A DNA stretch of 49,467 bases, taken from Parafrankia discariae (GTDB taxonomy: Bacteria > Actinomycetota > Actinomycetes > Frankiales > Frankiaceae). Positions within the stretch are counted from its first letter, which is position 1. Each line of letters starts with the position of its first letter. This document shows positions 8,463 through 40,161 of this stretch, one piece after another. The notes beneath the pieces were generated by a model. The model searched no databases. It was not told the DNA's origin and was given only the letters and a program-made list of their open reading frames with translations. The translations under genes were made by a program, and so were the position numbers. The stretch covers positions 1 to 49,467 of the forward strand of contig NZ_KB891229.1 in the NCBI RefSeq assembly GCF_000373365.1. Reading direction: 5' to 3'.

Positions 8463-8463
8463 G

Positions 8464-14459: not shown

Positions 14460-15247
14460 GCTGCCCCCTCGACGATGATCTGCTTCGCCAGCTCCGTCCA
14501 CAGCGTCGCCATCTCCGGTCCCCGTGCCGACCCGCAGATCTGCAACGGCAGCGCCGAGGAGGCCGCGTCCTTCGCCGCCGTCCACTCCGGGATGTGCGGC
14601 GTCCACACGTCACCCTCCAGCCGGTCGGCGAGCCCTTCGAGCTGGAAGGCGTGCTCGCCGACTCGGCGGGCTCGGTTGACGAGATAGGCGAGGACCCGAA
14701 GGTCCGGCTGACCCAGGTCCTGGGCATAGCCCTTCACGAAGTCGCGGACCCGCAGCGCGCCTTCGACCGAGTCGTATTCCGGTTCGACGACGACCAGAAC
14801 CCTCTGCGAGGCGGCGAACGCCATCTGGGTCAGATGCCCCAGGGAGGGCTGGGCGTCGATCAAGGTGTAGTCGTACTCGTCGTCCACGCCCTGCAGGGCG
14901 CGCCGCAGCCGACCAACGGCACCGACCGTGCCCGCCTCGCTCACCCGGTTGTCCAGGTCGAACCGGGCCGGGAGGACCGACACCAGCTCGGTGTAAGGGG
15001 AGGGCCAGCCAGACGGCGCTATCGCCTGGGCGGCTACTCCTTCCTCGCCTGACCGGACAACCTCACTCGCGGTGAGCTGAGGCGCGTCGCGGTCGAAGGG
15101 GCGGGCGAGGCGCCGGGAGGCGTTCGCCTGCGGGTCCATGTCGACGACCAGCACTCGCTTGTCCAGTTCCGCCAGCGCCGCGGCGAGGTTCACCGTCGCT
15201 GTCGTCTTCCCCGCGCCGCCCTTGTGGTTGGCAATCGTGATCCGCAT
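14456..15247 (-). CDS. parA: ParA-family partition ATPase
   Basis: A 263-residue MinD/ParA-type ATPase. It opens MRITIANHKGGAGKTTATVN with the deviant Walker A motif KGGAGKTT (residues 9-16), followed by the A' motif VLVVDMDPQANAS (about 33-45) and the Walker B-type strand YTLIDAQPSLG. A ParA lacking a long N-terminal HTH (type Ib-like or chromosomal-like) is implied by the length. It is the first gene of a three-gene minus-strand operon, followed with overlap by the octad-repeat protein. Three copies of the 24-bp repeat lie directly upstream, probably as an operator and/or centromere. It indicates that this region is, or was, part of a plasmid or integrative element with active segregation. 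Confidence 0.88.
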   Translation of the reverse strand: MRITIANHKGGAGKTTATVNLAAALAELDKRVLVVDMDPQANASRRLARPFDRDAPQLTASEVVRSGEEGVAAQAIAPSGWPSPYTELVSVLPARFDLDNRVSEAGTVGAVGRLRRALQGVDDEYDYTLIDAQPSLGHLTQMAFAASQRVLVVVEPEYDSVEGALRVRDFVKGYAQDLGQPDLRVLAYLVNRARRVGEHAFQLEGLADRLEGDVWTPHIPEWTAAKDAASSALPLQICGSARGPEMATLWTELAKQIIVEGAA

Positions 15248-17062: not shown

Positions 17063-17275
17063 TCAAGATCTTGCCGGCAGGTCGAACTCGCCCTCCGTGA
17101 CGCCCCAGAGGAACACTTCCCATTCCCGTGGCGTGAACGTGAGGACAGGCCCTTCGGGGTCCTTCGAGTCGCGGACCGAGACCGTCGTGCCGAGGCGGAC
17201 CTCGACGCAGTTGCCTCCGGAGGAGTTCGAGTAGCTGCTCTTGATCCAGGTGGGGTCTGGTTCAGGTGATGTCAT
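17063..17275 (-). CDS. DUF397 domain protein
   Basis: A 70-residue protein that is almost entirely a DUF397 domain: TWIKSSYSNSSGGNCVEVRL, then TVSVRDSKDPEGPVLTFTP and the ending REWEVFLWGV. DUF397 proteins are small actinobacterial proteins usually encoded beside an XRE/DUF5753 regulator, and Scr1/Scr2-type pairs behave like toxin-antitoxin or regulatory partners (family knowledge). Its start overlaps the end of the upstream XRE gene by 14 bp, so the pair is translationally linked. Confidence 0.88.
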   Translation of the reverse strand: MTSPEPDPTWIKSSYSNSSGGNCVEVRLGTTVSVRDSKDPEGPVLTFTPREWEVFLWGVTEGEFDLPARS

Positions 17276-18137
17276 CGGCTACCTTCTTGATCATTTCTAG
17301 GGACTGCTGCGGTGGGAGGGCGATGGCTCGGATGTGGTCCAGGCGGGCGATGTAGCGGCGTACGTCGGCGGCCCGCTCGACGTAGATCGCGCTGTCGAGG
17401 GCCTCGATGTAGACGACGTCCTCATCGCCGGCTCCGGCGTCGAATCGCAGGACGGAGAACCCGGTGCCGAGGGCGGGGTGCGCGCCGGCGTCGAAGGGCA
17501 GGACCTGCAGGGTGAGCGCGGGCATCTGGGCCTGGTCGAGCAGGTGGAGAAGCTGCGCGTGCAGCACCTCTACGCCGCCGACGGGCCGACGTAGGACAGC
17601 TTCGTCGAGGATGGCCCACACGGCGGGAGGCCGGTCACGGGTGAGCAGCCGCTGCCGCTGGGTGCGTAGCTCCACCTGGCGGGCGATGTCGCTCTCCGAG
17701 CGTCGGGGGACCCCGGCGGCGAGGACCGCCGCGGCGTAGCCAGGAGTCTGCAGCAGGCCCGGAACGAGCTGGGTCTCGTAGGTGGTGATCGCGCTGGCTT
17801 CGGTTTCCAGGCCGATGTAGCCGTCGAACCAGCCGGGGAGCAGGTCTCCGTAGGACTGCCACCATCCGCGCTCGTTGGACTGCCGTGCCAGGGCGGTGAG
17901 CGCTGTGACCGTGTCGGAGTCGGTGACCTGGTAGAGCTCCAACAGGTCTGCGACGTCGCGGGCGGTGGTGGGGCTTCGCCCGAGCTCAATTCTTGAGATC
18001 TTCGATGCGGCGCAGTCGAGGTGGATTCTCGCCTGATCGGCGGTGACACCGGCGGTTTCTCGCAGTCGGCGAAGTTCGGCGCCGAGCCGTCGACGACGCA
18101 CGGTGGGACTGGTGTCGTCTCGCTCTGTCCGGTCCAC
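17262..18137 (-). CDS. XRE-family regulator with DUF5753 domain
   Basis: About 291 residues from GTG 18137. The N-terminal helix-turn-helix (residues 12-65) reads LGAELRRLRETAGVTADQAR and AASKISRIELGRSPTTARDV. The C-terminal DUF5753 domain (about 95-280) contains QLVPGLLQTPGYAAAVL, RLLTRDRPPAVWAILDEAVL and LTLQVLPFDAGAHPALG, ending in the typical YIEALDSAIYVERAADVRRY. Partner of the overlapping DUF397 gene. ATG at 18182 is an alternative start but adds a Gly/Arg-rich segment absent from the family. Confidence 0.88.
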   Translation of the reverse strand: MDRTERDDTSPTVRRRRLGAELRRLRETAGVTADQARIHLDCAASKISRIELGRSPTTARDVADLLELYQVTDSDTVTALTALARQSNERGWWQSYGDLLPGWFDGYIGLETEASAITTYETQLVPGLLQTPGYAAAVLAAGVPRRSESDIARQVELRTQRQRLLTRDRPPAVWAILDEAVLRRPVGGVEVLHAQLLHLLDQAQMPALTLQVLPFDAGAHPALGTGFSVLRFDAGAGDEDVVYIEALDSAIYVERAADVRRYIARLDHIRAIALPPQQSLEMIKKVADDIT

Positions 18138-18352
18138 GAGGGGCAGTCTGCCACCGCCGCGGCCGCGGTTCGACGGGCCATGCATGTGCAGCAAGCAGCC
18201 GAGACAGGTCGTGCTGCCAGGCAGTCTCACGAAAAAATCTTCATGGAATTCTATTATGGTATTGCATGATCTTGTTTTGGTGTGGATCCTGGGGATATCG
18301 GCGCGGATCCGACTGCAGGATCCGGCCCGCGATCCCGAAGTGGAGACTGCTG

Positions 18353-18601
18353 ATGGACTGGCGGCACCGAAGCCTCTGCCGTGATGAGGACCCCGAGCTC
18401 TTCTTCCCGATCGGCACGACCGGCCCGGCCGAGCGCCAGGTCGAGGAGGCCAAGGCGATCTGCAGGCGGTGCGCGGTCACGAGCGACTGCCTGAACTGGG
18501 CGCTGGACACCGGGCAGGACTCCGGTGTGTGGGGCGGGTTGAGCGAGGACGAACGCCGGACCCTGAAGCGTCAAGTGCGTCTGCGGGTACGCACCGCATG
18601 A
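18353..18601 (+). CDS. WhiB-family iron-sulfur transcription factor
   Basis: An 82-residue protein starting MDWRHRSLCRDEDPELFFPI at ATG 18353 with GGAG eight bases upstream. The four WhiB cysteines are present: C9, then CRRC (two) and DC following the TTGPAERQVEEAKAI helix. The G-V-W-G-G turn (SGVWGGLSEDER) and a basic C-terminus (RRTLKRQVRLRVR) are also present. WhiB proteins bind a 4Fe-4S cluster and partner with the principal sigma factor. Divergent from the XRE/DUF397 pair. The upstream region (18230-18300) is AT-rich and probably contains both promoters. Confidence 0.9.
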   Translation: MDWRHRSLCRDEDPELFFPIGTTGPAERQVEEAKAICRRCAVTSDCLNWALDTGQDSGVWGGLSEDERRTLKRQVRLRVRTA

Positions 18602-18843: not shown

Positions 18844-19212
18844 GCCGCGTGGTGGAGACAGCTTCGTCTCCACGCCCGCGGCGATCAGAACGCCGACCCA
18901 CCAGGCGCCGGCATCGTCAGGACCGGGGTCCTCTCTCTGGTCAAGGGACGTGGCCACTTTGAGGCCGTCGGGCGACGACTGCTCTGCCACCGTGCCCGCG
19001 CAGGAAGGCACGTGCGGCTGGTGCCTCGGCGGAGCTGCGGAGCAGGAGCCGATCACGACATGGCCCTCTCGAGGCGCCACCTCCGCAGTCCTGTAGGGAG
19101 CGCGCGGTAGCGTCGCGGAGGTTTTGACCATGCGCGTGGCCGTATGTCCAAGGGCGTCGGCAGCTCGCGTGTCCGCCTGACATGCTGCCAAGCGTGCCTG
19201 TGGGAGGTATTG

Positions 19213-19818
19213 GTGCCGCTGCTCGATGACGAGCCCCGATCTGTGGTTGCGGATCTTGTGGGACGGGTTTCGCCGCACGATAATCAGGAGACAGGTGACC
19301 AGCGGGAGATCCTTGGCTGGGTGGCATCAGGAGCGCCTCTGTTCCGGGTTCAGTCTCCCGCCACCCCTCCTCGCCATCTCGCGGTGTACTTCGCGTTGCT
19401 GGATGACAATCATCGGCAAATAGTTCTGGTTGACCATGTCAAGGCCGGGTGCTGGCTTCTGCCGGGTGGTCACGTCGACGATGGCGAGAACCCGGCGACG
19501 ACCGTCATTCGAGAGGCGGAGGAGGAGCTGGGGATCGCGGCGCGGTTCCACGAGGAACTGGGCGGCGGGAATCCTTTCTTCCTGACTGTCACGCAGACCC
19601 GTGGAGCGGACAGTCACACGGATGTCACCCTGTGGTTTGTTCTTGCTGCGGATCGTGGACAGGCTATTGTGCCAGATCCCCGCGAGTTTCGAGGTATAAG
19701 CTGGTTTGGATTGGATGAACCTATCGACTGGGCCGCGAGCACCTTCGATCCGCAGATGCACCGGTTCGTCGACAAGTTGAGAACGGCCCTAGTCGCCACC
19801 GGTGTCTCTTCGCGCTAA
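19213..19818 (+). CDS. Nudix hydrolase
   Basis: About 201 residues from GTG 19213, with GGGAGG just upstream (TTG 19210 also possible). The Nudix box is complete at about residues 85-108: GGHVDDGE, then REAEEELG with the metal-binding glutamates. An N-terminal helical stretch (RSVVADLVGRVSPHDNQETG) precedes the fold. The product hydrolyses a nucleoside diphosphate linked to an unknown moiety. It converges on the eight-gene minus-strand operon (stop codons almost abut at 19815-19818) and may belong to the same pathway, although it is on the other strand. Confidence 0.85.
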   Translation: MPLLDDEPRSVVADLVGRVSPHDNQETGDQREILGWVASGAPLFRVQSPATPPRHLAVYFALLDDNHRQIVLVDHVKAGCWLLPGGHVDDGENPATTVIREAEEELGIAARFHEELGGGNPFFLTVTQTRGADSHTDVTLWFVLAADRGQAIVPDPREFRGISWFGLDEPIDWAASTFDPQMHRFVDKLRTALVATGVSSR

Positions 19819-20627
19819 ACGTCATTCTCGGTGAGCTCGGTCACGAGATTGATGGCAGCATGGTCAGACAGTCCTTGATGGCGAGTTGAATGGTCGTAGA
19901 CGCATTTTCGTAATGTGATCGTTGGGCTGATCAAGGCGTGATCGAGGCGTTGGCTGCCGTAGACGCTACTGAACCAGCTGTGTTCGTTGCCGTGAGGATG
20001 GCAGGCGCGGTAGGCGTCGTGTAGTCCGAGGTCGATCAGGCCTCGGTAGAAGGCGTAGTCGTGTTCCTCGAACGCCGGGAGCGGTGGCCGGTGGTCGGGT
20101 TCGATGACGTTGAGGTCCCCGACGACGCACAGGCCGGGGCGGCGGATGCTGGTCAGGTACACGAGGAGCTGCTGCTGGAAGGTACGACGGTGGTGGCTGC
20201 TGTCGGTGGTCATGCCGTTGGTGGGTCCGTAGACGCCGATCAGTCGGAGGGTGCTGGCGGTCGATGTCAGGTCAACGGCGACCACCCGCGGGTCGAGGGG
20301 GCCGGGCTCGACGTTCGCGACCTCGAATCCTCGGGCTGCGATGAGGGTGTGAAAGCGGCTCTCGTGCCACCCCGGGGTGCAGCTGGTTCGGTATCCGTGC
20401 GCTTCCAGGATGCTGCGGATGAGCCGACCAGAGTTGGCTTGCATCTCGGTGAGCACGAGGACATTGCGGTCGCTGCTGAGAAGCCAGTCGACCAGTCGCT
20501 GTGCGCGGGCCAGGCTGGGACTGTTGACGTTGAGAGAGCACAACCGCAGGTCCTCGGCGGGGGCATGGTTCTCGACGGTGTCTCCGAGATCGGCGAACAG
20601 CATTCCCTGGTCGGCGTTGGTGTCCAT
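19815..20627 (-). CDS. EEP-fold endonuclease/exonuclease/phosphatase (copy 2)
   Basis: A 270-residue member of the endonuclease/exonuclease/phosphatase superfamily. Metal and catalytic motifs are in order: LCSLNVNS (Asn), VLVLTEMQ (Glu), LIGVYGPTN, LCVVGDLNV (Asp-Asn), SQRLDHAL and GLSDHAAI (Asp-His). It lacks a signal peptide. Last gene of the operon: its ATG follows the cupin stop directly (TGAATG) with GGAGGTG inside the upstream gene. A second EEP protein is encoded in the same operon (27.07-27.94 kb). Members cleave phosphodiesters or phosphomonoesters of nucleic acids, nucleotides or lipids; the substrate here is unknown. Confidence 0.82.
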   Translation of the reverse strand: MDTNADQGMLFADLGDTVENHAPAEDLRLCSLNVNSPSLARAQRLVDWLLSSDRNVLVLTEMQANSGRLIRSILEAHGYRTSCTPGWHESRFHTLIAARGFEVANVEPGPLDPRVVAVDLTSTASTLRLIGVYGPTNGMTTDSSHHRRTFQQQLLVYLTSIRRPGLCVVGDLNVIEPDHRPPLPAFEEHDYAFYRGLIDLGLHDAYRACHPHGNEHSWFSSVYGSQRLDHALISPTITLRKCVYDHSTRHQGLSDHAAINLVTELTENDV

Positions 20628-21308
20628 TCACACCTCCGACGGCGCAGGGTGCGCGGTGGCGATCAGGGATCGGATCCGGGCGATCGCCTCTTCGACCTGT
20701 CCGCGGCTCATCTGTTTGCTGGCCCGTGTCTGGGGTGATTCGTGGGCGGCGCCGTAGGCCCAGAACGACGGGCCGGAACGGTCGAGGATGAGGAACCGGT
20801 CCTTGGCCGCGGGGCCTCGTAGGAGAAGGGAGATGCTGTCGGCCTCGGCGTGTACGGAATGGACGCTGGTGTGGTGGAGAGCATAGCTGCTGCCGGCGCG
20901 TTCGACCCGCTCGTGTATCGGTTGCAGGGTATCAGGGTCGGTGTCCTCGCCGAACTGGTCATCACGGCCGAAGATGCGATGCGTGTAGCTGCCGCGCAGG
21001 ATGTGGCTCGCGAACGACCAGCGATGATTGTGCGGGCGATCAAAATAGCCGGGCCGATACAGGTGAAGCCGGAGGCGAGACTGTGATTCGCGATCGTCGT
21101 GGAGAACGAGTTTGTCCATGAAGTCGTAGTGCTCGCACATCGGCTGCAGGTGCGGGTCGGCGGCGAGGGTGTCCAGCAGGGCGGGAAGCAGACCGGACTG
21201 GTCGGTGAGCGCGTCGAAGAGGGGTCGCGCATGGTGAAGAAGAGATCCGGTGTCGTCCCAGTCGATGCGTCCGAGGCCCAGGAGGGCCGGGTGCGAGGCA
21301 CTGGCCAT
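20628..21308 (-). CDS. cupin-like metal-binding protein
   Basis: About 226 residues from ATG 21308; an ATG at 21320 overlaps the formyltransferase stop (ATGA) and may be the coupled start. The central region, LYRPGYFDRPHNHRWSFASH then ILRGSYTHRIFG, has the His-x-His and Gly pattern of a cupin metal site, with later histidines in YALHHTSVHSVHAE. This layout resembles cysteine-dioxygenase-like cupins. It could be a dioxygenase, isomerase or binding protein. It sits between formyltransferase and EEP genes with no gaps, so it is part of the pathway. Confidence 0.6.
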   Translation of the reverse strand: MASASHPALLGLGRIDWDDTGSLLHHARPLFDALTDQSGLLPALLDTLAADPHLQPMCEHYDFMDKLVLHDDRESQSRLRLHLYRPGYFDRPHNHRWSFASHILRGSYTHRIFGRDDQFGEDTDPDTLQPIHERVERAGSSYALHHTSVHSVHAEADSISLLLRGPAAKDRFLILDRSGPSFWAYGAAHESPQTRASKQMSRGQVEEAIARIRSLIATAHPAPSEV

Positions 21309-21316
21309 GACGGAGA

Positions 21317-22720
21317 TCATCCTTTTTCGGTCGGGTGGAGGCTGTTGGCCCAGGCGTCGAGGACACGCTTGAGGTGCGGATGGAGCCGGTAGAACTGTCG
21401 TCCTGGGTGTTGCGGGGTGCATGCGGGGAGCTGCCCGGTGGCGGCGACGAACTGGGATGCGGCCAGCAACAGCCGCAGCTGGGCGTCCTTGACGCGGGCG
21501 TGCAGCGTGCGGGTGGGGGCGAGCGGCAGGGGGATGGTGGCGAGGACCTCGCCTTGGTCGACCGCGGGCCGGGCCAGGTGAAGCGTGCAGACGACGGGGT
21601 CGTTGTTGATGACCGTCCAGCCGACGGCGTCCATACCCCGGTAGTGCGGCAGCGCACCGTTGTGGGCGTTGATCACACCGAGGCGGGCCAGGTCGAGGAT
21701 GAACGTCGGCAGGATCGGCATGCCGAGGAGGACCACCAGGTCGGGGTGGTGCCGCCGTAGCGCTGCCGCGACCGCGTCCCAGCTCGGTGTGACGAGGTGG
21801 GCCGCGGCGTCGGAGGGCGGGTCGCTGGGCTTGGCGGCGGGTGTGGGACCGGTCATCGTGGGCGTCTCGGTGGACGGGTACCAGGCGGTGGCGTATCCGG
21901 AGTGGGTGAGGTCGGCGGACTGGCTGGTGTCCTCGCCATACCAGCAGGCGACCGTGATCGGCAGCCCTACGGCCGTGGCTGCGGCGAGGAAGCGACGTGC
22001 TGTGCTGGATCCCGCCGCGGCCAGCACAGCGATGGTGGGTGGGGCAGCGCAGCGGCCCGGTGCGGGTGCCCCGACCAGGTCAGGCTCCGCCAGCGCCGGC
22101 GATGGGGCAGCCACGATCAGCCTGCTGGCCAGATGGACCGTGAGGTCGTCGGTCATGACGCTGGCAAGCTGGGCTGTGGCCGCCAGGGGCTGGGTGAGTG
22201 CACTCCAGCTGTCCGGGTCCGGGTGCCCCGGTGCGCGGTGTCGTGGTCGGGTCTGGGTCCAGACAGCGCCCAGCAGCTTGCACGATGCGTTGAAGAACCG
22301 AAGGTCGCCTGTCGCCGTGGACAGGCCGATCCAGTGGCGGGCCAGGGCCAGCCACGCCTCGGCGACGGACGGGGTGAGAGCGCCGACGGCAGTGGCGACC
22401 GGGGGTCGCCACAGGGGCGCCACCTCGAAGGCGTGCAGGACGGCGACGTCATCACCGACGTCGTACTCGTCTACTCGAGCCGGCTCCGCGGCTGCGGCGG
22501 CGGCCAGGACCGTGGCGCAGGCCTCGGCGTCGGCCTGGCGAAGACGCCACAACCGGGCCCACCGCGCGGCGGCGGCCAGGCCGAGGGACACGCGAGGCCG
22601 GCCGGGCACGTCCGGCTCTCCGACAGCGGAAATGATCTCCGAGAGGGTGAAGTCTGCGTCGAGGTCGTGCAGGACGGGGTAGCGGATGGGGGCCTTGCCG
22701 CCGGGGGTTGTGGTGGCCAT
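21317..22720 (-). CDS. formyltransferase-domain enzyme with large N-terminal domain
   Basis: A 467-residue protein. The C-terminal half carries the methionyl-tRNA/sugar formyltransferase catalytic domain: PDLVVLLGMPILP, then LGVINAHNGALPHYRGMD (the Asn and His of the N-x-H motif) and AVDQGEVLATIPL (the Asp). The substrate-recognition Ser/Leu of the usual HxSLLP is changed to HNGALP. The first ~230 residues are helical, rich in Ala and Trp, and unrecognised; family members normally lack such a domain. Paired with a DegT aminotransferase gene four bases upstream, it would fit N-formylation of an amino sugar or amine, using N10-formyl-tetrahydrofolate. This is inference. Confidence 0.72.
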   Translation of the reverse strand: MATTTPGGKAPIRYPVLHDLDADFTLSEIISAVGEPDVPGRPRVSLGLAAAARWARLWRLRQADAEACATVLAAAAAAEPARVDEYDVGDDVAVLHAFEVAPLWRPPVATAVGALTPSVAEAWLALARHWIGLSTATGDLRFFNASCKLLGAVWTQTRPRHRAPGHPDPDSWSALTQPLAATAQLASVMTDDLTVHLASRLIVAAPSPALAEPDLVGAPAPGRCAAPPTIAVLAAAGSSTARRFLAAATAVGLPITVACWYGEDTSQSADLTHSGYATAWYPSTETPTMTGPTPAAKPSDPPSDAAAHLVTPSWDAVAAALRRHHPDLVVLLGMPILPTFILDLARLGVINAHNGALPHYRGMDAVGWTVINNDPVVCTLHLARPAVDQGEVLATIPLPLAPTRTLHARVKDAQLRLLLAASQFVAATGQLPACTPQHPGRQFYRLHPHLKRVLDAWANSLHPTEKG

Positions 22721-22724
22721 GGTG

Positions 22725-23981
22725 TTACGCGGCGACGGCCGTGCTGACTGCGGTCAGTGCGGCGAGGTAGCCCTCGACCATGGGATCGTCGCCGTCGTAG
22801 CCCCACAGGGGGATCTTGATGAAAGTGTCTTGGAAGCGCTGGACGCCAGCGAAGCGACTCAGCCGCGGCGGCCTCCCCGACGGGGCCGGCGATGGTGTGA
22901 CCCGGTACGGGGCGTGCGGGTCGCGGCGGGTGAACAGTGGTTCCTGGCTGATGTCACGGGTGGAGCCGGGGACGTCGACCTCGGTCGCCCCCTCGGCGTG
23001 GCACCACGAGACGAACTCGCCGAGGGACACTGTCGAGTTGTCCGGGTGATACCTCAGCCCGGTGACGTACAGCCCGTGCTGGCCCTGCTCCGGGGGCACC
23101 ACCACGGGGCTGATCACGGGATTGCCCGCCAGCCCGGTGACGAACCGGTCGAGCACGCCACGACGGCGGCGCTCGATGTCGGCGGCGCGGGCGAGCTGGT
23201 GCACACCGATGGCGGCCGCCACGGGGTGGAGGCGGTGTTTGAGACCCATCCCGGTGAACGCGAACGGGGCGTAGTCGGCCGCCGGGTCGATTTCGGTCTG
23301 GCAGCGCTTGTTGTAGTGGCCGAACAGCAGCGCCAGATCCCGGTACCGCTGCTGCGACATCGTGAGGATGCCGCCCTCACCGGTCGTGATCGCCTTCTGG
23401 TTCGTCGAGTAGACGGCGAGGTCGGCCAGGCTGCCGACGTGCTGGTCCGCGCGGGAGGCGAAGTGGGCGTGGGAGCAGTCTTCCAGGAGGAGTAGCCCGT
23501 GTTCGCGGCAGAACTCGGCGATCGCCGGCATGTCACAGGGGTTGCCCCACAGGTGCGTGACGATAACCGCGCGTATGTTCGGTTTCAGCTGGTCCGCGAG
23601 CGTTTCGGCGGTCACGTTGCCGTACTCGTCGGCGTCGACGAAGACCACCTCGACACCCTCGAAGGCGAACGGTGACGCGGTGGCGAGGAATGTGTAGGCC
23701 GGCGCGAGGACAGCGTCCCCAGGTCCCAGTCCTGCGATGCGGCTCATCGCATGGATCGCGGAGGTGCCGGAGGAGAAGGAGATCGCGTGGGGCGCGTCGA
23801 CGAATGCGGCAAATTCCCTTTCGAATTCGCCGACGATGCCGGTGGAGTCGCGGTCAGACAGGGACCTTTCGGTTTGTGCGACGATCGCTTCCTTGAGACT
23901 GTCATCGATGATCGGCCACTGGTAGTGCGGGCCGGGGATGTCGAATGTTCGGGGTCCGCTGTGGACGATGCGGGCTGCCAT
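22725..23981 (-). CDS. DegT/DnrJ/EryC1/StrS-type PLP aminotransferase
   Basis: A 418-residue protein with family hallmarks: FSSGTSAIHAMSRIAGLGPG (cofactor phosphate loop), VLAPAYTFLATASP, VFVDADEYGN, VTHLWGNPCDMPAI, LLEDCSHAHFA (Asp pairing with the pyridine nitrogen) and YSTNQKAITTGEGGIL, where the Lys forms the Schiff base. These enzymes aminate keto sugars or cyclitols. ATG 23981 with GGAGG ten bases upstream. It sits 18 bp after the kinase-like gene and four bp before the formyltransferase gene, so they are cotranscribed. Confidence 0.88.
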   Translation of the reverse strand: MAARIVHSGPRTFDIPGPHYQWPIIDDSLKEAIVAQTERSLSDRDSTGIVGEFEREFAAFVDAPHAISFSSGTSAIHAMSRIAGLGPGDAVLAPAYTFLATASPFAFEGVEVVFVDADEYGNVTAETLADQLKPNIRAVIVTHLWGNPCDMPAIAEFCREHGLLLLEDCSHAHFASRADQHVGSLADLAVYSTNQKAITTGEGGILTMSQQRYRDLALLFGHYNKRCQTEIDPAADYAPFAFTGMGLKHRLHPVAAAIGVHQLARAADIERRRRGVLDRFVTGLAGNPVISPVVVPPEQGQHGLYVTGLRYHPDNSTVSLGEFVSWCHAEGATEVDVPGSTRDISQEPLFTRRDPHAPYRVTPSPAPSGRPPRLSRFAGVQRFQDTFIKIPLWGYDGDDPMVEGYLAALTAVSTAVAA

Positions 23982-23999
23982 CGGACGGGAACCTCCAGG

Positions 24000-24725
24000 C
24001 TAGGCAGGGTCGGTGGGCCGCCGGGTCGCCTCCGCGCGAAGGCCGGCGACGAGGGGCCGAAGAAGAGACAGGCAGTCCTCGACGGGCGCGCCGGCCTCGA
24101 GGGGGACCGTGGACCAGCTGTTCTTCCTGGCCAAGCTCAGGAGGCGGCCGAGGCCGCGTTGCTGGTAGTCGACGAACGTGGCCCGTCCCAGGGCGGGGTA
24201 GCCGGCGTGCATGCCGAGCTCGGCGAGTCGGAACTCGGCGTGGCGGCGGTCGTAGAGGGCTCCGACGTCAGCGGTGAGCAGCACCACGGCGTCCGGCATC
24301 CGCACTCGGCCGAACATTGCCGCGAGTTCGGGTTCGGTGTATCCCTGTAGCAGCAGTTTGGAGAAGAATTTGTATACCCATCCGTCGACGATGACGTCGT
24401 ACCCGGCAGTCAGCAGCGGGTCGAGAACGGTCGTGGCGTGTGCGGTGAACCATGCCGCCTGCAGGGATACCCAGAATCCGTCGGGAAGGTCAGGGGCGTC
24501 CCCGCTGTGCCAGAGCATGGTGGCCAGTTGTTTCATCAGGGTGGCGGAGTAGTCCGAGGTGGCGGAGATCTGACGGCGGCTGACGAAGACAAGCCGCCGG
24601 CGGGTGCTCTCCGGATTTTTCAGGCCGGCCACCGCGGTGGTGTAGTCCTCGGTTCCCAGCCTGGCCGCGAGGGTCGACTTGCCGACGCCGTCGGGACCTT
24701 CGAGTGCGATGAAGCTGCCGATCAT
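24000..24725 (-). CDS. thymidylate-kinase-like P-loop kinase
   Basis: A 241-residue protein from ATG 24725 (AAGGAG five bases upstream). The Walker A is FIALEGPDGVGKSTLAARLG (residues 5-24), as in dTMP kinases, but the usual DRY motif is replaced by IVDGWVYKFFSKLLLQGY. MPDAVVLLTADVGALYDRRH supplies the strand and Arg of the lid-type region. Compared with dTMP kinase (about 210 residues) it is longer and divergent, so the substrate is probably a nucleotide, nucleoside or phosphorylated pathway intermediate rather than dTMP. Part of the eight-gene operon. Confidence 0.78.
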   Translation of the reverse strand: MIGSFIALEGPDGVGKSTLAARLGTEDYTTAVAGLKNPESTRRRLVFVSRRQISATSDYSATLMKQLATMLWHSGDAPDLPDGFWVSLQAAWFTAHATTVLDPLLTAGYDVIVDGWVYKFFSKLLLQGYTEPELAAMFGRVRMPDAVVLLTADVGALYDRRHAEFRLAELGMHAGYPALGRATFVDYQQRGLGRLLSLARKNSWSTVPLEAGAPVEDCLSLLRPLVAGLRAEATRRPTDPA

Positions 24726-24781
24726 CGTGCTCCTTCCGTCGCCAGATCGGCTGCGGTCTGCGCGGTGTGGAGCCGATGGGG

Positions 24782-26941
24782 TCAGGTGCCGCACGGGTCC
24801 GCCGCGTTGATCAGCTGCCAGTCCTGTGCCTGTTCCCACCGGCGGTGTTCGCGGTGCAGCAGCGCGGAGGCGTCGGCCGGCAGCTGGGTCAGCAGGGTGT
24901 TGATCGTGTTCGCCATCGCGTCGGTGAGACGGGCGTGCTGGTGGTCCAGCGCCGTCCGCAGCGCGCGATCGAGGTGTTCGACGTCGCGGCTCGGCAGCGA
25001 CCGTGACGGCATCCGGGCGAGGAGGTCGAGCATGTCGGTGAGCAGCGCGAACGCGGCACCCTTCACGATCACTCGGGTGGTGCGGACCAGGTGGCGCTCT
25101 GTCTCGTCGAGGATTTTCTCCAGGCTCTTCAGCGTGTAGTCGAGGGCGAAATGGCGGTCGACCCACAGTTGGGCGTGATGCGAGCAGCGACCGATACGCC
25201 AGTCGGCGAACTCCGCGTCGACGCGGCCCATGGAGGGGCGGACGGCGCGGGCCAGGCCGGCGGCCTGCACTCTGCGGGTGTAGGCGGCGCCGAGGAGGCA
25301 CTCCATCGACACGAGCAGGTAGGAGATGGCGGTGTGGAGGGGCTGACCGGTGCTGTGTCGGGCGACGAACCGGTCGTCGTGGACGCCGTCAACGATGTCC
25401 TCGACGCTCAGGTGTGGCAGCGGGCGCAGAAGAAGGTCGGTGCGGGCCTGGAACGCGTGGGTGGCGCGTAGCTCGCCGAGGTCCATCAGCGGGTCGAAGG
25501 TGATGTAGATGAAGCGGGTGGGGACGCCGAGCGCCGAGAGCGTGCGGATGGCCAGCGCGTTCTGGGTGGCGGTGGTCTCCTTGTTAAACCGGACCAGAAC
25601 CGACGCGACCCCCGATTCGACACCGAACAACATGCGGCGCAGGCCATGAGCGACGAGCTGGCGCCACATGCGGGCCCGTTCGACGTGCCATGTCCGATCG
25701 TGCTCGGGGTCGACGACCTGGTTGACGCGGCAGGAGGATTCCCACTGGAAGCCGGCCGCGTGCAAGGTCGTTGCCAGGTCCAACACCCGTGGGACCGCGT
25801 CGGGCCCGGCGCCGATAACTTCCTCGTCGACGAGGTACAGCGTGCGGGAGACACCAGGGTGCCGGTCGAAGACCCGGCCCATCTCCTTGAGGATCCAGCC
25901 GAGGGCATCCGCGCTCGACCCGGCCCAGGAGCCCTTGTGGCCGCGGGGGCAGAAGGAGCAGGAGTTCGTGCAGCCCCGGGATGCCTCCAGCTGCGCGACA
26001 CCCTTGTGCTCGAACGTGGCGTCGAGCAGGTCGAGCTCGGGCAGGAAGTCTGACTGGGCGCGGTTGGTCACGGCGGCGGTCCGCCGGTGATCGCGCCCGA
26101 TGGCCAGCCCACCGCCGCGGGCCGCCCCGACGTATCCGAGTCCACGTACCTGGGACAGATCGAGGTCTTCGTGGACGTAGCTCATGATGTCGGCGAGGGT
26201 CGGCTCTCCCGCGCCTCGGGCGACGAGCAGCTGCGGATGGCGGTCCAGCAGAAGCTGTTCGTTGCGGGCGGTCAGGCTGCCGCCCGCCAGAACAAGCGGC
26301 GGTGCGGGCAGGCTCAGGAGTTCCTCGAGCAGGCTGGTCATCAGGTCGTGCTGACCGAAGGTGGCTGAGATACCGACGATGTCCGGCTGCCAGGTGTCCA
26401 CCGCGGTGAGGATGTTCTCGATCGTCACGCCCAGCTGCATGTCCATGAGGCGCACCTGACCGAGCAGGGTGGAGCGGGCGGCCCGCGCCAGGTCGGAGAT
26501 CGCCAGGGGAAAGCGGGGCAACGGGAACCACTCGGGGTGATACAAGGCGGTGAGCAGGACGCGGGGACGCAGCAGGCGGTCGACGGCCTCGCGGGTGACA
26601 TGCGCCGTGGAGAGCCACTCGCTGGTGTTCCCCACCGTGATCCGTCCTGCGGTCCATGCGGGCCAGCTCCTGCTCGCGTGCGGATGGCCGGACAGATCCG
26701 CTGCTGTCCACCAGCCACGTCCCGACGCGCGCTCGGCGAGGAGCAGGCGACGGTCCAGGGGACCCGTGAGGCTGAAAGGGCCGGGGAGCAGAGCTGTCAA
26801 CGCGGCGCTCAACGCGACCGGGTCGGTCAGGGGAATGCGGCGAAGGTCGTCGGCTGCCCGCGGGTCAACCTGGTCGCCGAGAACGTGGGACATCGCGTCG
26901 AGCAGCCTGCTGTGCGTGGTTAACGGGGCGAGAGTCGGCAT
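24782..26941 (-). CDS. cobalamin-binding radical SAM enzyme
   Basis: A 719-residue protein from ATG 26941. An N-terminal region of about 100 residues is unrecognised. A B12-binding-like Rossmann domain follows (about 125-275: VLLTALYHPEW, WQPDIVGISATFGQHDL, LVLAGGSLTARN, VARGAGEPT), though the DxHxxG histidine motif is not evident. The radical SAM core starts LEASRGCTNSCSFCPRG with cysteines 324, 328 and 331 (C-x3-C-x2-C), then YLVDEEVIG, LFGVESG and TRFIYITFDPLMD. A helical C-terminal domain of about 200 residues completes it. Such enzymes methylate unactivated carbons or rearrange rings. It is the likely signature step of the pathway. Confidence 0.85.
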   Translation of the reverse strand: MPTLAPLTTHSRLLDAMSHVLGDQVDPRAADDLRRIPLTDPVALSAALTALLPGPFSLTGPLDRRLLLAERASGRGWWTAADLSGHPHASRSWPAWTAGRITVGNTSEWLSTAHVTREAVDRLLRPRVLLTALYHPEWFPLPRFPLAISDLARAARSTLLGQVRLMDMQLGVTIENILTAVDTWQPDIVGISATFGQHDLMTSLLEELLSLPAPPLVLAGGSLTARNEQLLLDRHPQLLVARGAGEPTLADIMSYVHEDLDLSQVRGLGYVGAARGGGLAIGRDHRRTAAVTNRAQSDFLPELDLLDATFEHKGVAQLEASRGCTNSCSFCPRGHKGSWAGSSADALGWILKEMGRVFDRHPGVSRTLYLVDEEVIGAGPDAVPRVLDLATTLHAAGFQWESSCRVNQVVDPEHDRTWHVERARMWRQLVAHGLRRMLFGVESGVASVLVRFNKETTATQNALAIRTLSALGVPTRFIYITFDPLMDLGELRATHAFQARTDLLLRPLPHLSVEDIVDGVHDDRFVARHSTGQPLHTAISYLLVSMECLLGAAYTRRVQAAGLARAVRPSMGRVDAEFADWRIGRCSHHAQLWVDRHFALDYTLKSLEKILDETERHLVRTTRVIVKGAAFALLTDMLDLLARMPSRSLPSRDVEHLDRALRTALDHQHARLTDAMANTINTLLTQLPADASALLHREHRRWEQAQDWQLINAADPCGT

Positions 26942-26961
26942 GGACGTTGACACCTCCCAGG

Positions 26962-26975
26962 GCGCCAAAAGGCGC
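26962..26975 (-). promoter_or_regulatory. small hairpin in the leader before the radical SAM gene
   Basis: GCGCC and GGCGC flank AAAA in the 130-bp gap between the upstream EEP gene and the radical SAM start, just before GGGAGGTG. No cobalamin riboswitch features were recognised. It could modulate translation; weak evidence. Confidence 0.25.
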
Positions 26976-27071
26976 AATGCAACGCAAGGTGATCAAAATG
27001 CGTCGGAGGGTATTCGTGGGTGGGCGTGCGGGAATGCGCGTGCGACGCGGGCGGAACGGCCTGGCTGCGGC

Positions 27072-27941
27072 TTAGCGCAGAGGCTGAGGCGTCATGGAAG
27101 CCGGCGGCATCGGCGGCGGGGTGAGGCGGACCACGAGCGCGGCGTGATCGGAAAGGCGGGACACGCGGGGCTGGTGCAGGTAGTAGCAGTCGCCGAGCGT
27201 GTCGCGGTGCGGGCTGGTGCAGAAGATGTGGTCGAAGCGGTAGCCAGCTCCCGAGCGCCCGAACCACGAGTGGTCGACCGCCTGGGGGCGGCGGTGGCGG
27301 AAAGCGTCGGTGAAACCGCTGGCGGCGAAGGCCCGGTAGAAGTCGTACTCCCAGCGGCCGAACACGCCGTGATGGGGAACATGGCCTGGTTCGACCACGT
27401 TGAGGTCGCCGGCTACGACCACCGGCACGTGGGGGCCGAACGTGGACGGGAGGATCGGGAGGAGGTCGGCGACGGCGGCCTGGAAGGCGCGTTTGGCGAC
27501 GTTGCGCCGCTCTCGGGGGCCGCGCGAGGGCACGTAGAGTCCGACGACTGCCAGGCACCGCGGGCCGGGCAGCGTGACGGTGGCGACCGCGAGCCGGTGG
27601 GGCAGATGGTCGGTACGGAGCTCGAGGGCAGGCGCGAGGTCGCCGACGCGGGCGGCGATCAGGACGCGGTAGTCGCTGCCCGCGGCGTCGGTGAGGTGCG
27701 TGGCATAGCCGTACCCAGCGAGGGCCTTGGCCAGTTCGTCGCCAGCGGGCCCGCTGGCGACCTCGGTCACGGTGACGACGTCGGCGTCCGGACAGCTGGC
27801 CAGCCATGCGGCCTGCCGTGCGCCTCTGACCCGGCTGGCGCGCTGGACGTTCCAGGTCAGCACGCCGATGGAGCTCCCCCGCCCGTCAGGGGGCTGTCCG
27901 TCCGGGACCTGCCCGCTTCGCGTCGGGTGCGTCGCCGTCAC
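27072..27941 (-). CDS. EEP-fold endonuclease/exonuclease/phosphatase (copy 1)
   Basis: A 289-residue EEP protein. Motifs: VLTWNVQRAS (Asn), VVTVTEVAS (Glu), CLAVVGLYVPSRGPRERRN, VPVVVAGDLNVVEPGHVPHH (Asp and Asn), RFDHIF and RLSDHAAL. It shares with the other EEP copy the segments DLNVVEP/DLNVIEP, YDFYRAF/YAFYRGL and DHSWF/EHSWF, so the two are paralogues. Its ATG overlaps the stop of the aldo/keto reductase gene (ATGA). Two paralogous EEP enzymes in one operon suggest successive phosphoester cleavages or a heteromer. Confidence 0.82.
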   Translation of the reverse strand: MTATHPTRSGQVPDGQPPDGRGSSIGVLTWNVQRASRVRGARQAAWLASCPDADVVTVTEVASGPAGDELAKALAGYGYATHLTDAAGSDYRVLIAARVGDLAPALELRTDHLPHRLAVATVTLPGPRCLAVVGLYVPSRGPRERRNVAKRAFQAAVADLLPILPSTFGPHVPVVVAGDLNVVEPGHVPHHGVFGRWEYDFYRAFAASGFTDAFRHRRPQAVDHSWFGRSGAGYRFDHIFCTSPHRDTLGDCYYLHQPRVSRLSDHAALVVRLTPPPMPPASMTPQPLR

Positions 27942-29104
27942 CGGGGTGTCCCCGGGCCGGCGGCGAGTTCGTCGAGGAAGACCTGTCCGCCAGCGTCCAA
28001 GCGGGCCTGCACCTGCGCCATGATCGAGCGGGCCGCGTCGAGCGTCGATGGTTCGGGTCGGTCACCGAGGCAGGTGAGGTTCATGCCGACCTGCTCCGGG
28101 CGGGTGAAGCCGGCCAGGACAGCAGCATGTGGGGAACGCGAAAGGCAGGCCCACAGGGCGATGCGGATCAGGTCCGCAGGCTCGGGTCCGACGAGGTCCC
28201 GCACGCCGGCGAGGCCCTCGGCGATCACTGCAGTTGCCTCAGGGGCGAACCATCGTTTGCGTCCGCGGTGATCTCCGGGTCCGAACGTCCGTGGACGGTC
28301 AGGCGTGTAGCTGCCGGTCAGCAGGCCCTGGGCAAGCGGCTTGTTGACCAGAACCCCGCAGTCGTGGGCGTCAGCCAACGCAAAGATGCCCGCGGACCGG
28401 TGACCGGGGGTCAGCAGGTTGTCCCGCACGGCGAGTACCTCGGGCTGGACCACCTCGAACAGGGCACGGAACCGTGCGATCTTGTCGCCGCGCAGTTCCG
28501 ATGGGGTCTGCAGCCGATCGAGGGCGAAACGGTGCGGCCCCCGCATTCCCACGGCACGGATCAGGCCTTCGGTTTGGAAGCCGCGGATCGCCTCGACCGC
28601 GCCGTGCAGGTAGCAGTCTTCGGGGCCGAAGTCGGCGTGGTGCAGGAAGTAAATGTCCAGGTGATCGGTGCTGAGGTTGTCCAGGCTCTGCTCCAGCTGG
28701 CGGCGCATGTGCCGGGGCTCGTACCCATGCCGTGCGGTACCGGCGAAGTAGCCGACCTTCGACGTGAGTACCAGTGTGTCCCGGTGGACCTGGCCCACCA
28801 CCCGACCCAGAAGCCGTTCCGACCGCCCGTGGCCATACACATCCGCCGTGTCGAACAGATCGGCGCCGAGCTCGACGGCACGCTCCAGACCCGCCACGGC
28901 CGTTGTCTCGTCCACCTCCGACCAGCCCATCGGCATGCCGAGATTGTGATCCGGCCCGCCGATCGGCCAGCACCCCACACCCACCGCGGACACCTCGATG
29001 CCACACCGGCCCAGCCGACGCCGAGGAACTCTTCCACTCACTGTTGATGGATTTTGGTTCACCAGCCGACTGCCTCGGGTGCTCATCGGATCGTTGACAG
29101 TCAT
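27938..29104 (-). CDS. aldo/keto reductase
   Basis: A 388-residue protein from ATG 29104 with GGGGAG nine bases upstream. A (beta/alpha)8 aldo/keto reductase with the catalytic tetrad visible: Asp and Tyr in LFDTADVYGHG, Lys in LVLTSKVGY, His in IYFLHHADFG. It uses NADPH to reduce carbonyls or sugars. The C-terminal part after VNKPLAQGLLTG is typical of the family. First large gene of the operon, overlapping the next gene by four bases; divergent from the NsdA-like regulator at 29.7 kb. Confidence 0.85.
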   Translation of the reverse strand: MTVNDPMSTRGSRLVNQNPSTVSGRVPRRRLGRCGIEVSAVGVGCWPIGGPDHNLGMPMGWSEVDETTAVAGLERAVELGADLFDTADVYGHGRSERLLGRVVGQVHRDTLVLTSKVGYFAGTARHGYEPRHMRRQLEQSLDNLSTDHLDIYFLHHADFGPEDCYLHGAVEAIRGFQTEGLIRAVGMRGPHRFALDRLQTPSELRGDKIARFRALFEVVQPEVLAVRDNLLTPGHRSAGIFALADAHDCGVLVNKPLAQGLLTGSYTPDRPRTFGPGDHRGRKRWFAPEATAVIAEGLAGVRDLVGPEPADLIRIALWACLSRSPHAAVLAGFTRPEQVGMNLTCLGDRPEPSTLDAARSIMAQVQARLDAGGQVFLDELAAGPGTPR

Positions 29105-29109
29105 GAAGG

Positions 29110-29229
29110 TCATCTCCCCGTCAGCGTTCTCGAACTTATCGGGTGGAGGGATGGGCCCACAGTCTCGGGACCTCGCAGGGCTGTTCCCAGGGACGCCCCG
29201 AGGGCCAGCTCCAGGGCCTGCATGAACAC
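29110..29229 (-). CDS. possible 39-aa peptide at the head of the eight-gene operon
   Basis: GTG 29229 has GGGAG six bases upstream. The peptide begins VFMQALELALGASLGTALRG and ends in SRTLTGR, with its stop overlapping the ribosome binding site of the aldo/keto reductase gene. It could be a leader peptide, a precursor peptide or chance. There is no Cys, and six Ser/Thr in the last half. Confidence 0.25.
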   Translation of the reverse strand: MFMQALELALGASLGTALRGPETVGPSLHPISSRTLTGR

Positions 29230-29617: not shown

Positions 29618-29714
29618 CCAGGGTGGGAATGATCCCCACCCTGGTGAGTGCGGACTGTCCCCGCCCACCCTGTGCTGGGGGCAGAGACCTGGGTGGGGTT
29701 CCGTCCCACCCAGG
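29618..29714. promoter_or_regulatory. two GGTGGG-type hairpins upstream of the NsdA-like regulator
   Basis: Two perfect 10-bp inverted repeats: CCAGGGTGGG (29618-29627) with CCCACCCTGG (29635-29644), and CCTGGGTGGG (29688-29697) with CCCACCCAGG (29705-29714), each with a 7-bp loop and spaced 70 bp apart. The second ends 28 bases before the GTG of the regulator. Likely autoregulatory operators. The remainder of 29230-29742 holds no recognisable gene and presumably the divergent promoters. Confidence 0.6.
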
Positions 29715-29742
29715 TGCATGGGGCAGGACGGAGGAGGATTTC

Positions 29743-31134
29743 GTGCAGACCGACGACCGGCAGCCCGCGCGAAGTCGCTACCTGAGGCGAGTGCAGGAGC
29801 TCTACGACGAGCGTCAGGCCACCATCGCGGGCCTGGCCAGCGCGATGGGAACGCCATGGCGGAACGTTGACCGGTCGACGGTTCGTGCCGCGGTGCGGGG
29901 GGAAAGGGCGGGGCAGCCCGTTCCCCTACCCACACAAGAAACCGTCGAGGGCCTAGACAAGGAGCTCGACGCCCACGGTGAGTTGATCGATCTCTGGCGG
30001 CTCGCGTCGGTGGAACAGCACGCCCTCGAGATCGGTCTGCGCGTTCCCGTCATATCCGAGGCTCCGACTGGACCTACGGCCGATCGTGGGGCGACAGTGG
30101 TTGCTAGCAGCGGGGAGGTGATGGACACGAACCGGCGCAGTGCACTCCGCGGCGGCGTGATGCTCGGTTCAGCCGCGGCAGCCGCCTCCGTGTACGAGCG
30201 CATCGCCGGCGCCGACCCACGACCCGCCGCACTGGAAAAGTTCGAGGCAGAGATCCACGAGGTTGCGCAGATCTACCGCACCACCCCCCACCACGTTCTG
30301 ATTGCCCGGCTCGAGCCCAAGTGGAGACAGATCGAGGCCCTCCTTGACACGAGGGTGACCTTGGCGGTCCGCGCTCGACTCACCAACCTCGCTGGATGGG
30401 CGGCGTTCTACCTGGGCACGCTCGGCTTCGACATCGGCGCGGACGACGCGGCCCGCGAGTTTCTTGCCTTGGCCAGCAGACACGCCACCGAGAGCGGCGA
30501 TGCGCTGCTCTCCGGGTCTGCGGCTGCGATACGCAGCAGCGTCGCCTACTTCACCGGTGCCTACACTGCTGCCGCTGACATCGCCCACCGGGCGCAGGAC
30601 GGCGCACACCCGTTTGCTCTGCCCATCCTCGCCGGCTGTGAGGCCCGCGCCGCCGCGCTCGCCGGCCGACCCCACGACGCACGCCGCGCCCTCCATGTCA
30701 TGCAGGACAACGTGTGGTCCGGCGGCCTGATGCCCGGCCCGAACCCCGGAGACGAGGCGTTCGCCTGCGGCTTCGCCGCCGTGACCCTCGCCAACCTCGG
30801 AGACGGCGAAGCCGCCGAGCGGCATGCCCGCCAAGGCCTGGAGCTGGAGCTCGCCAACGGACCTGACCATGTCGTTCAGGTCAGCGGCAAGTACAACTCC
30901 CTCGCCCGCGCCTACCTGCGCAGACAGAGCCCTGATCCGGAGCAGGCAGCGGAAGCGGTACGGACGGCACTGCTCACCCTGCAGGGGCGCCCCAACCGGA
31001 CCGTGATCCAACAGGCCGGGACGATGTGGAAGGAGATGGACAGCCGGTGGTCCGAGCTCTCCGACGTCCGCGATCTCGGAGAGCTCGTGACGACATCCCG
31101 CCGTGCGCTCCCACAGGCATCGCCCACCACCTGA
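29743..31134 (+). CDS. NsdA-like/XRE-type regulator with TPR-like C-terminus
   Basis: A 463-residue protein from GTG 29743 behind GGAGGAGG. The N-terminus looks like a degenerate helix-turn-helix (RVQELYDERQATIAGLASAM, GTPWRNVDRSTVRAAVRGE). A hydrophobic Tat-like stretch follows (MDTNRRSALRGGVMLGSAAA, about 127-150), which in this family is not thought to be an export signal. The rest consists of helical TPR-like repeats (WAAFYLGTLGFDIGADDAAR, FACGFAAVTLANLGDGEAAE). It has the same architecture as the regulator at 42.6 kb. Divergent from the eight-gene operon and therefore its probable regulator. Confidence 0.7.
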   Translation: MQTDDRQPARSRYLRRVQELYDERQATIAGLASAMGTPWRNVDRSTVRAAVRGERAGQPVPLPTQETVEGLDKELDAHGELIDLWRLASVEQHALEIGLRVPVISEAPTGPTADRGATVVASSGEVMDTNRRSALRGGVMLGSAAAAASVYERIAGADPRPAALEKFEAEIHEVAQIYRTTPHHVLIARLEPKWRQIEALLDTRVTLAVRARLTNLAGWAAFYLGTLGFDIGADDAAREFLALASRHATESGDALLSGSAAAIRSSVAYFTGAYTAAADIAHRAQDGAHPFALPILAGCEARAAALAGRPHDARRALHVMQDNVWSGGLMPGPNPGDEAFACGFAAVTLANLGDGEAAERHARQGLELELANGPDHVVQVSGKYNSLARAYLRRQSPDPEQAAEAVRTALLTLQGRPNRTVIQQAGTMWKEMDSRWSELSDVRDLGELVTTSRRALPQASPTT

Positions 31135-36258: not shown

Positions 36259-36274
36259 CGGTTGGGCCTTTCGG

Positions 36275-40083: not shown

Positions 40084-40161
40084 CTCTCGCTCCGCGTTCC
40101 GGGATGGGCGAAGGAGGGCGGGTCCGGCCCCATGGGGCCGGACCCGACGAGTGCGTGGGGT

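Follow-up and report, generated by a model that had tools for sequence, protein, structure and literature searches.

We analysed a stretch of 49,467 nucleotides from Parafrankia discariae (contig NZ_KB891229.1), called the window below, and in particular an operon of eight minus-strand genes at 19815-29113, Table 1. The genes encode an aldo/keto reductase (AKR), a protein of the endonuclease/exonuclease/phosphatase family (EEP1), a cobalamin-dependent radical S-adenosylmethionine (SAM) enzyme (rSAM), a thymidylate-kinase-like protein (TMK-like), a DegT-type aminotransferase, a formyltransferase-like protein, a cupin-like protein and a second EEP protein (EEP2). A sequence-only reading of this DNA had listed eight genes in this order, with overlaps or short gaps between them, and had placed a convergent Nudix gene and a divergent regulator at the flanks. 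The domain scans bear out the gene order, both flanking genes are present, and the regulator passes the cut-off of the NsdA family.

The operon and its radical SAM enzyme

The genes are tightly packed. AKR and EEP1 overlap by 4 bp, EEP1 and rSAM are 130 bp apart (counted from the rSAM ATG at 26941), and 56 bp separate rSAM from the ATG of the TMK-like gene at 24725, upstream of which lies the purine-rich GGAAGGAG. The gap is 18 bp between the TMK-like and DegT genes and 4 bp between the DegT and formyltransferase genes. The formyltransferase and cupin genes overlap by 4 bp when the cupin start is refined to ATG 21320, the cupin and EEP2 genes abut, and EEP2 and Nudix overlap tail to tail by 4 bp. 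None of the eight operon genes contains an internal stop, the GC content at third codon positions is 0.80-0.89, and compared with the Paractinoplanes copy all eight diverge in the manner of coding sequences, with differences of 0.37-0.52 at codon position 3 and 0.13-0.29 at position 2. The start codons of the AKR and Nudix genes are uncertain. In several alignments and in the tree, rSAM was translated from 26944, and residue numbers there are one higher than those counted from ATG 26941.

Table 1. Coordinates of the operon genes, the flanking genes and the cupin cassettes of other loci.
Feature	Position	Strand	Evidence and remarks
Aldo/keto reductase (AKR)	27938..29113	-	Pfam Aldo_ket_red 7e-32; relatives suggest start ~29050
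EEP1, endonuclease/exonuclease/phosphatase family, ExoIII/APE1-like	27072..27941	-	Pfam Exo_endo_phos 7e-8
OxsB-type cobalamin-dependent radical SAM enzyme	24782..26941	-	719 aa from ATG 26941; TTG 26977 possible start; CxxxCxxC
Thymidylate-kinase-like (TMK-like) P-loop nucleotide kinase	24000..24725	-	GPDGVGKS P-loop
DegT/DnrJ/EryC1/StrS pyridoxal phosphate (PLP) aminotransferase	22725..23981	-	Pfam 2e-59; NQKAITTGEGG motif
Formyltransferase-like protein	21317..22720	-	Formyl_trans_N 3e-11
Cupin-like protein, 230 aa from ATG 21320	20628..21320	-	HxH...H motif and predicted fold
EEP2, second ExoIII-like EEP protein	19815..20627	-	Pfam Exo_endo_phos 5e-8
Nudix hydrolase, convergent	19144..19818	+	Pfam NUDIX 4e-20; full Nudix box; true start further in
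NsdA-family TPR-like regulator, divergent	29623..31134	+	NCBIfam NF053720, 88.7 vs cut-off 75 bits
Cupin cassette	L034:7881-11724		
Cupin cassette	L035:7858-12961		
Cupin cassette	L037:10240-14025		
Cupin cassette	L033:7482-10427		

The rSAM protein, described earlier as a B12-type radical SAM enzyme, is no generic member of that class; it is related to OxsB over nearly its whole length. Its Pfam matches to B12-binding (3e-6) and Radical_SAM both fall below the curated cut-offs, and NCBIfam gives only distant matches (11 at E up to 0.01), the best of which, BchE at 2e-12, is far below its cut-off. When a profile built from seven members was compared with the solved structures, OxsB was matched with an E-value of 2e-98, positions 58-709 of 714 in the profile corresponding to 50-741 of 744 in OxsB. 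The second match was TokK at 2e-4, for profile positions 185-334 only, and no other B12 radical SAM enzyme was matched among the solved structures at E up to 1. The OxsB alignment takes in part of the N-terminal domain, which is missing from TokK and TsrM according to a 2025 review (PMC13331322).

The window protein is 30.3% identical to OxsB 50-741 over 638 aligned residues, twelve other family members are 27-32% identical, and 102 alignment columns are the same in all 14 sequences (13 family members and OxsB). The three-cysteine motif of the window protein is CTNSCSFC; OxsB has one residue more between the first two cysteines. Four loci of the survey described below were left out of the alignment and the tree: L008, L017 and L022, where rSAM is in pieces, and L009, a near copy of the kind found at L004. 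Judged from its sequence, the enzyme is kin to OxsB, which uses B12 to contract the deoxyribose in oxetanocin A biosynthesis. To our knowledge, OxsB is the only structurally solved enzyme that shrinks the sugar ring of a nucleotide.

The partner enzymes have intact motifs. The AKR carries the motifs for an Asp/Tyr/Lys/His tetrad, which we take to be catalytic, and gave no PDB match at E up to 1e-30, a harsh limit. In EEP1 the residues at the positions that we assign to the ExoIII catalytic set are invariant in 10 sequences, including that of the window, and the presumed catalytic residues of EEP2 are invariant in seven. ExoIII, APE1 and LINE-1 nucleases are the PDB matches of EEP1 (among the 58 matches listed, E up to 1e-3), and EEP2 likewise matches nucleases, including the LINE-1 endonuclease and ExoIII (among the 20 matches listed, E up to 1e-6). 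The TMK-like protein does not reach the threshold of the thymidylate kinase model, and its profile matches thymidylate kinases in PDB with a best E-value of 2.5e-8. The DegT protein has perosamine synthetase as its nearest solved relative (1e-46), and the lysine of its NQKAITTGEGG motif is presumably the one that binds PLP.

For the formyltransferase-like protein the best PDB profile match is PurN (5e-13), and N351, H353 and D388, presumably the N-formyltransferase catalytic residues, are invariant in seven sequences. Its N-terminal region of about 210 residues is mostly helical and has no family assignment. The model of the protein has a mean pLDDT of 66.7, and its fold matches are formyltransferases, sugar N-formyltransferases among them, mostly with a large root-mean-square deviation (rmsd). 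In the cupin, H97, H99 and H154 are invariant in seven sequences. There was no Pfam match at E up to 1, and the PDB sequence search gave at best 0.1, for mercaptosuccinate dioxygenase. The best of five models has a mean pLDDT of 73.2, the other four 42-56. Foldseek places thiol dioxygenases first for this model, at a TM-score of about 0.4 and a large rmsd, while VIA gives a Z-score of 14.4 to a generic cupin and similar values to assorted cupins. By motif and predicted fold the protein would thus be of the metal-cupin type, a generic assignment that points to no particular reaction; since the TM-scores are about 0.4, assorted cupins have similar Z-scores and four of the five models are poor, we claim no reaction for it.

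Gene content of related loci

To describe the surroundings of the enzyme, 17 distinct rSAM loci were compared, the window and 16 others (numbered L002 and upwards), using tblastn at E up to 1e-5 on stretches of 12-26 kb (49 kb for the window). When 84,980 species, each represented by one genome, were scanned with sequence patterns, rSAM relatives were confirmed at eight loci, all from actinomycetes; the patterns came from one protein, and such a scan finds close relatives only. In an even sample of the class, rSAM is present in 4 of 393 genomes including that of the window, all four in the window's own family; this sample was also searched with a wider profile, two candidates per genome being scored. 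The order-wide and family-wide searches covered the same 35 genomes from seven genera. Five of 72,556 plasmid records carry rSAM. A phage-borne operon was set aside, as a search of 50,697 phage records for rSAM gave no match (E up to 1e-5). Repeated loci were not counted (L001, L010-L014 and L023-L028; among the cupin loci described below, L030/L032 repeat L034/L035, L029 repeats L033 and L031 repeats L036).

An AKR gene lies within 6 kb of rSAM at 14 of the 17 loci. EEP1 is present with about 49% identity or more at twelve, and at L005 a more diverged EEP gene takes its place. The five genes for the TMK-like protein, DegT, the formyltransferase, the cupin and EEP2 form a block that is complete, in the same order and on the same strand, at seven loci (the window, L002, L003, L005, L007, L019 and L020); the fetched stretches of the other ten yielded not one of its genes. 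Across the 17 loci EEP1 mostly goes with rSAM and AKR, and EEP2 with the block. The sequence-only reading had named a lack of co-conservation as what would refute it, and the gene set is co-conserved. The gene complement given there omits a PfkB kinase, whose gene follows EEP2 in four of the seven full clusters and is not in the window; a search for PfkB across the genome that contains the window (E up to 1e-5) was empty too, which by itself is no proof of absence. A convergent Nudix gene follows the EEP2 end at five of the seven; at L007 the contig ends first, and the L019 stretch has no Nudix gene. The NsdA-like regulator had no tblastn match in the other fetched stretches. In the plasmid copies L019 and L020 the TMK-like kinase and DegT are annotated as one protein, a fusion that links the nucleotide kinase with the aminotransferase.

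Ten of the 17 loci (L004, L006, L008, L009, L015-L019, L022) carry a gene of about 200 codons, here called NT, with a GSxG...DxD pattern, and at nine of them it is convergent with rSAM. We take this pattern to resemble that of nucleotidyltransferases; the Pfam match to NTP_transf_2 is weak and below the cut-off, and PDB gave no match by sequence at E up to 10. Nine of the ten NT loci are without the five-gene block; L019 has both and L021 neither (Fisher p 0.0037, not corrected for relatedness). The NT gene could be a resistance gene. From these gene contents rSAM, AKR and EEP1 look like a core that has been combined with different tailoring blocks. Beside the rSAM core, L004 has a NAD-domain protein (SAH hydrolase-like, below the cut-off), methyltransferases and a GNAT acetyltransferase; L018 repeats the weak NAD-domain match and has a GNAT gene and a gene annotated as a methyltransferase, and L009 has similar gene sizes. 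At L021:11659-15529, on an Agrobacterium pusense plasmid, downstream of a 40% identical OxsB-type rSAM gene lie another gene annotated as radical SAM, which has no Pfam match, and a Nudix gene; this cluster is possibly albucidin-like.

In the rSAM tree the window groups with copies from Actinoplanes, Paractinoplanes and Actinomadura (support 86/88, below the star limit of the program). L015 and L016, which belong to the window's own family and are of the NT type, do not group with it; L017, the third copy in that family, is in pieces, lies outside the tree and carries the NT gene. This grouping, the plasmid copies and the ParA and transposase genes elsewhere in the window together point to horizontal transfer of the operon. 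The ParA-like ATPase (14456-15247, minus strand) and the transposase genes (8265-10678) suggest that the contig is plasmid-derived or otherwise mobile.

The cupin leads to a wider pattern. Its relatives were found in 4 of 393 class genomes (five places, one of them in the window) and in ten plasmid records. We compared seven cupin loci without an OxsB-type gene (L033-L037, L039, L040), with H9, H11 and H13-H15 of the plasmid set excluded. At four of these (L033, L034, L035, L037), a kinase-like gene, a radical SAM gene of another class and a cupin gene are found with a facing Nudix gene, and at three of the four PfkB lies between the cupin and Nudix genes. The kinase-like gene is adenylate-kinase-like by NCBIfam in L034, L035 and L037, and in L033 it encodes a P-loop protein with a marginal ADK match. 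We know of no description of this cassette. This arrangement of four genes is absent from L036, L039 and L040, where the cupin matches are weaker, although at L039 there is a Nudix gene nearby and a pair of annotated radical SAM genes at a distance of about 6 kb. L038, where a 27% TMK match lies beside two radical SAM genes, was not counted. By gene content, a cupin, a nucleotide kinase, PfkB and a Nudix enzyme thus appear to form a recurrent group in the company of radical SAM enzymes of different kinds, which makes a nucleotide or nucleoside the most economical class of substrate for the operon of the window.

Known pathways and a proposed route

Because rSAM is related to OxsB over nearly its full length, the closest characterised pathways are those of oxetanocin A and albucidin rather than those of N-formylated amino sugars. 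A nucleotide- or sugar-derived small molecule had been suggested earlier from the DNA; the nucleotide-derived part stands, with a co-conserved operon behind it, while the amino-sugar pathway is not the closest match. The 2025 review counts only two known natural oxetane nucleosides, oxetanocin A and albucidin, and reports 2'-deoxyadenosine nucleotides as the substrates of OxsB and AlsB; for oxetanocin A two further enzymes are required, the HD phosphohydrolase OxsA and, to deal with the aldehyde, a non-specific alcohol dehydrogenase (PMC13331322). An aldehyde reductase is not encoded in the oxetanocin cluster, according to a second paper, on albucidin (PMC7074753). Like the oxetanocin A pathway (OxsB/OxsA, Bacillus megaterium), the operon has an OxsB-like B12 rSAM enzyme and a need for phosphate removal and aldehyde reduction. 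It differs in its added genes (a dedicated AKR, two EEPs, a kinase, DegT, a formyltransferase, a cupin and Nudix), in having Thr for Asn186, and in lacking OxsA, no HD phosphohydrolase being found by Pfam among the operon, Nudix and regulator proteins. With albucidin (AlsB/AlsA = AlbB/AlbA, Streptomyces albus subsp. chlorinus) it shares an OxsB-homologous rSAM enzyme in an actinobacterium, but it has no counterpart of the second radical SAM enzyme AlsA; here we compared descriptions, not the AlsB sequence. The same paper gives a putative ribonucleoside-triphosphate reductase in the albucidin operon albA-C and a thymidylate kinase gene five genes from albA, outside that operon (PMC7074753).

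The N-formylated amino-sugar pathways have the same pair of DegT and formyltransferase folds, with conserved residues at the catalytic positions. In contrast, no sugar-nucleotide enzymes were found among the scanned operon proteins, and the formyltransferase of the operon has the extra N-terminal region and reads HNG where we take HPS to be the usual motif. Puromycin-type aminonucleotide pathways follow a similar logic of nucleotide oxidation, PLP-dependent amination, Nudix and phosphatase; we know of none with a B12 rSAM enzyme. Among the titles and abstract starts listed in searches of open-licence literature, none describes the gene set. From its gene content the operon would have a key step like that of the oxetanocin pathway, and lies outside the oxetanocin and albucidin clusters as defined by OxsA or AlsA.

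We infer a route, with all its reactions, the base of the substrate, the sequence of steps and the final compound, from what is observed, i.e. the operon structure, the kinship to OxsB, the co-conservation, the kinase-DegT fusion and the intact motifs. A (deoxy)nucleoside would be phosphorylated, by PfkB where present and then by the TMK-like kinase, and the OxsB-type enzyme would rearrange and contract the sugar ring of the nucleotide to give an aldehyde, which the dedicated AKR would reduce. DegT would aminate a carbonyl on the same molecule, the formyltransferase-like protein would cap the amine, and the cupin would add another, metal-dependent step. Finally, the phosphates would be stripped by the EEP proteins and the Nudix hydrolase, letting the nucleoside leave the cell; the EEPs may replace OxsA as the phosphate-removing enzymes, or may clean DNA ends as self-protection. 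Nucleotide handling is supported by the TMK-like kinase, by Nudix at five and PfkB at four of the seven full loci, and we consider it probable that the operon makes a nucleotide-derived small molecule. That it serves a modified nucleoside and acts like an expanded oxetanocin pathway has about an even chance, in our judgement, and an OxsB-like ring contraction in particular could go either way. Amination and formylation of that same ring-contracted molecule is a more tentative idea, somewhat more doubtful than not.

Several observations weigh against this expanded oxetanocin pathway. The weakest point concerns the AKR and DegT: the AKR is found in clusters without DegT, which makes it doubtful that both act on one aldehyde, and since the AKR is part of the core, DegT may act on another carbonyl. 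The nearest solved relatives of DegT are named as nucleotide-sugar or similar enzymes, and the aminated portion may therefore belong to a separate sugar. The AKR of the window kind was not found at three loci (L006, L008, L021; a 32% match 8 kb from rSAM at L006 was not counted), an EEP1-type gene was not found in the fetched stretches of four (L006, L017, L020, L021), and neither the NsdA-like regulator nor PfkB is common to all full clusters. The Pfam scan found no OxsA-type HD protein and no second radical SAM enzyme among the operon proteins, and both EEPs resemble DNA nucleases rather than nucleotide phosphatases. An identity of about 30% to OxsB fixes no reaction, and in the rSAM tree only 2 of 11 branches are starred and the branches of OxsB and the Agrobacterium copy are long. 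Finally, a published feature of OxsB, described for this enzyme only and so no established mark of the OxsB/AlsB family, is changed: Asn186, which orders a water network below the cobalt, is Thr in all 13 family members.

The low identity and the Asn186 change also fit a nucleotide-derived product for which the OxsB-like enzyme performs C-methylation, epimerisation or another rearrangement, giving a modified nucleoside that has no oxetane. OxsB and AlsB have been reported to methylate, though the review deems this an artefact (PMC13331322). The kinase, Nudix and PfkB context suits any nucleotide substrate; however, the near full-length likeness to OxsB is far above that to any methylase (TokK 2e-4), and we hold such a different reaction to be unlikely. 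A separate question is whether EEP1 and EEP2 are self-protection enzymes that trim a chain-terminating analogue from the 3' ends of the producer's DNA, a role that overlaps with the expanded oxetanocin pathway. Both EEP profiles match only ExoIII, APE1-type and LINE-1 nucleases among the matches listed, with the catalytic positions intact, but in the window EEP1 overlaps the AKR gene and EEP2 adjoins the cupin gene, and each goes with a block of its own (EEP1 mostly with rSAM and AKR), for which two enzymatic steps are a better fit than a single immunity function. We regard the protective role as somewhat unlikely.

Less probable still is an aminated, N-formylated nucleotide-sugar or aminocyclitol pathway in which the B12 enzyme edits the carbon skeleton of the sugar. 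Perosamine synthetases and similar enzymes are the nearest solved relatives of DegT, and sugar N-formyltransferases are among the structures that the formyltransferase model resembles in fold. On the other side, the scanned operon proteins gave no match to a sugar nucleotidyltransferase, a 4,6-dehydratase or a glycosyltransferase (the rest of the window was scanned in part), the kinases are of the TMK and PfkB types, and the nearest solved relative of rSAM acts on deoxyadenosine nucleotides. The plain N-formyl amino-sugar pathway was set aside for the absence of sugar-nucleotide enzymes among the operon proteins, and is kept as a quite improbable rival. A radical SAM enzyme together with a nucleotide kinase is also the theme of viperin, and a viperin-like anti-phage system making chain-terminating nucleotide analogues in the cell would share this pairing and be consistent with the patchy distribution (4 of 393 class genomes) and the five plasmid records with rSAM. 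The PADLOC matches are weak (DegT and the kinase P-loop, best 5e-5) with none for rSAM, no viperin model is among its 11 NCBIfam matches, and an effector that is a triphosphate would have little use for phosphate-removing and tailoring genes. We therefore consider a defence role highly improbable; viperin and other listed defence systems were set aside on the NCBIfam and PADLOC results.

Neighbouring genes and significance

Beside the Nudix end of the operon, an HTH/DUF5753 regulator and a divergent WhiB-like gene are located at 17262-18601 of the window. A separate cluster for a ribosomally synthesised and post-translationally modified peptide (RiPP) is found at 35479-41552 (minus strand), with a lantibiotic dehydratase (913 aa), a LanC-like cyclase and a second thiopeptide-type protein. 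Its FxLD-system methyltransferase is above the cut-off (401.9 vs 320 bits), and L018 likewise has an annotated fxlM gene, about 9 kb away from its EEP gene. The window also contains an extra DNA polymerase III sliding clamp gene (dnaN, 44026-45195, plus strand), one of three in the genome above the family cut-off. Extra sliding clamps can be antibiotic self-resistance genes, as for griselimycin.

The 17 loci provide many new OxsB-type enzymes for the study of sugar-ring contraction by B12 and two SAM molecules, and they point to the AKR as a candidate for a dedicated aldehyde reductase and to the EEP proteins as candidate substitutes for OxsA. The mechanism of the contraction is not fully settled, according to the review (PMC13331322). 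Oxetanocin A is antiviral, antitumour and antibacterial, and albucidin is a herbicide. The aminated relatives of the oxetane nucleosides predicted here might inhibit polymerases. It is conceivable, with the balance leaning against it, that the operon represents a third family of natural oxetane nucleosides, the first with an aminated, N-formylated position and with its own aldehyde reductase and phosphate-removing enzymes, and that a larger, modular family of actinobacterial nucleotide-editing pathways would stand behind it.

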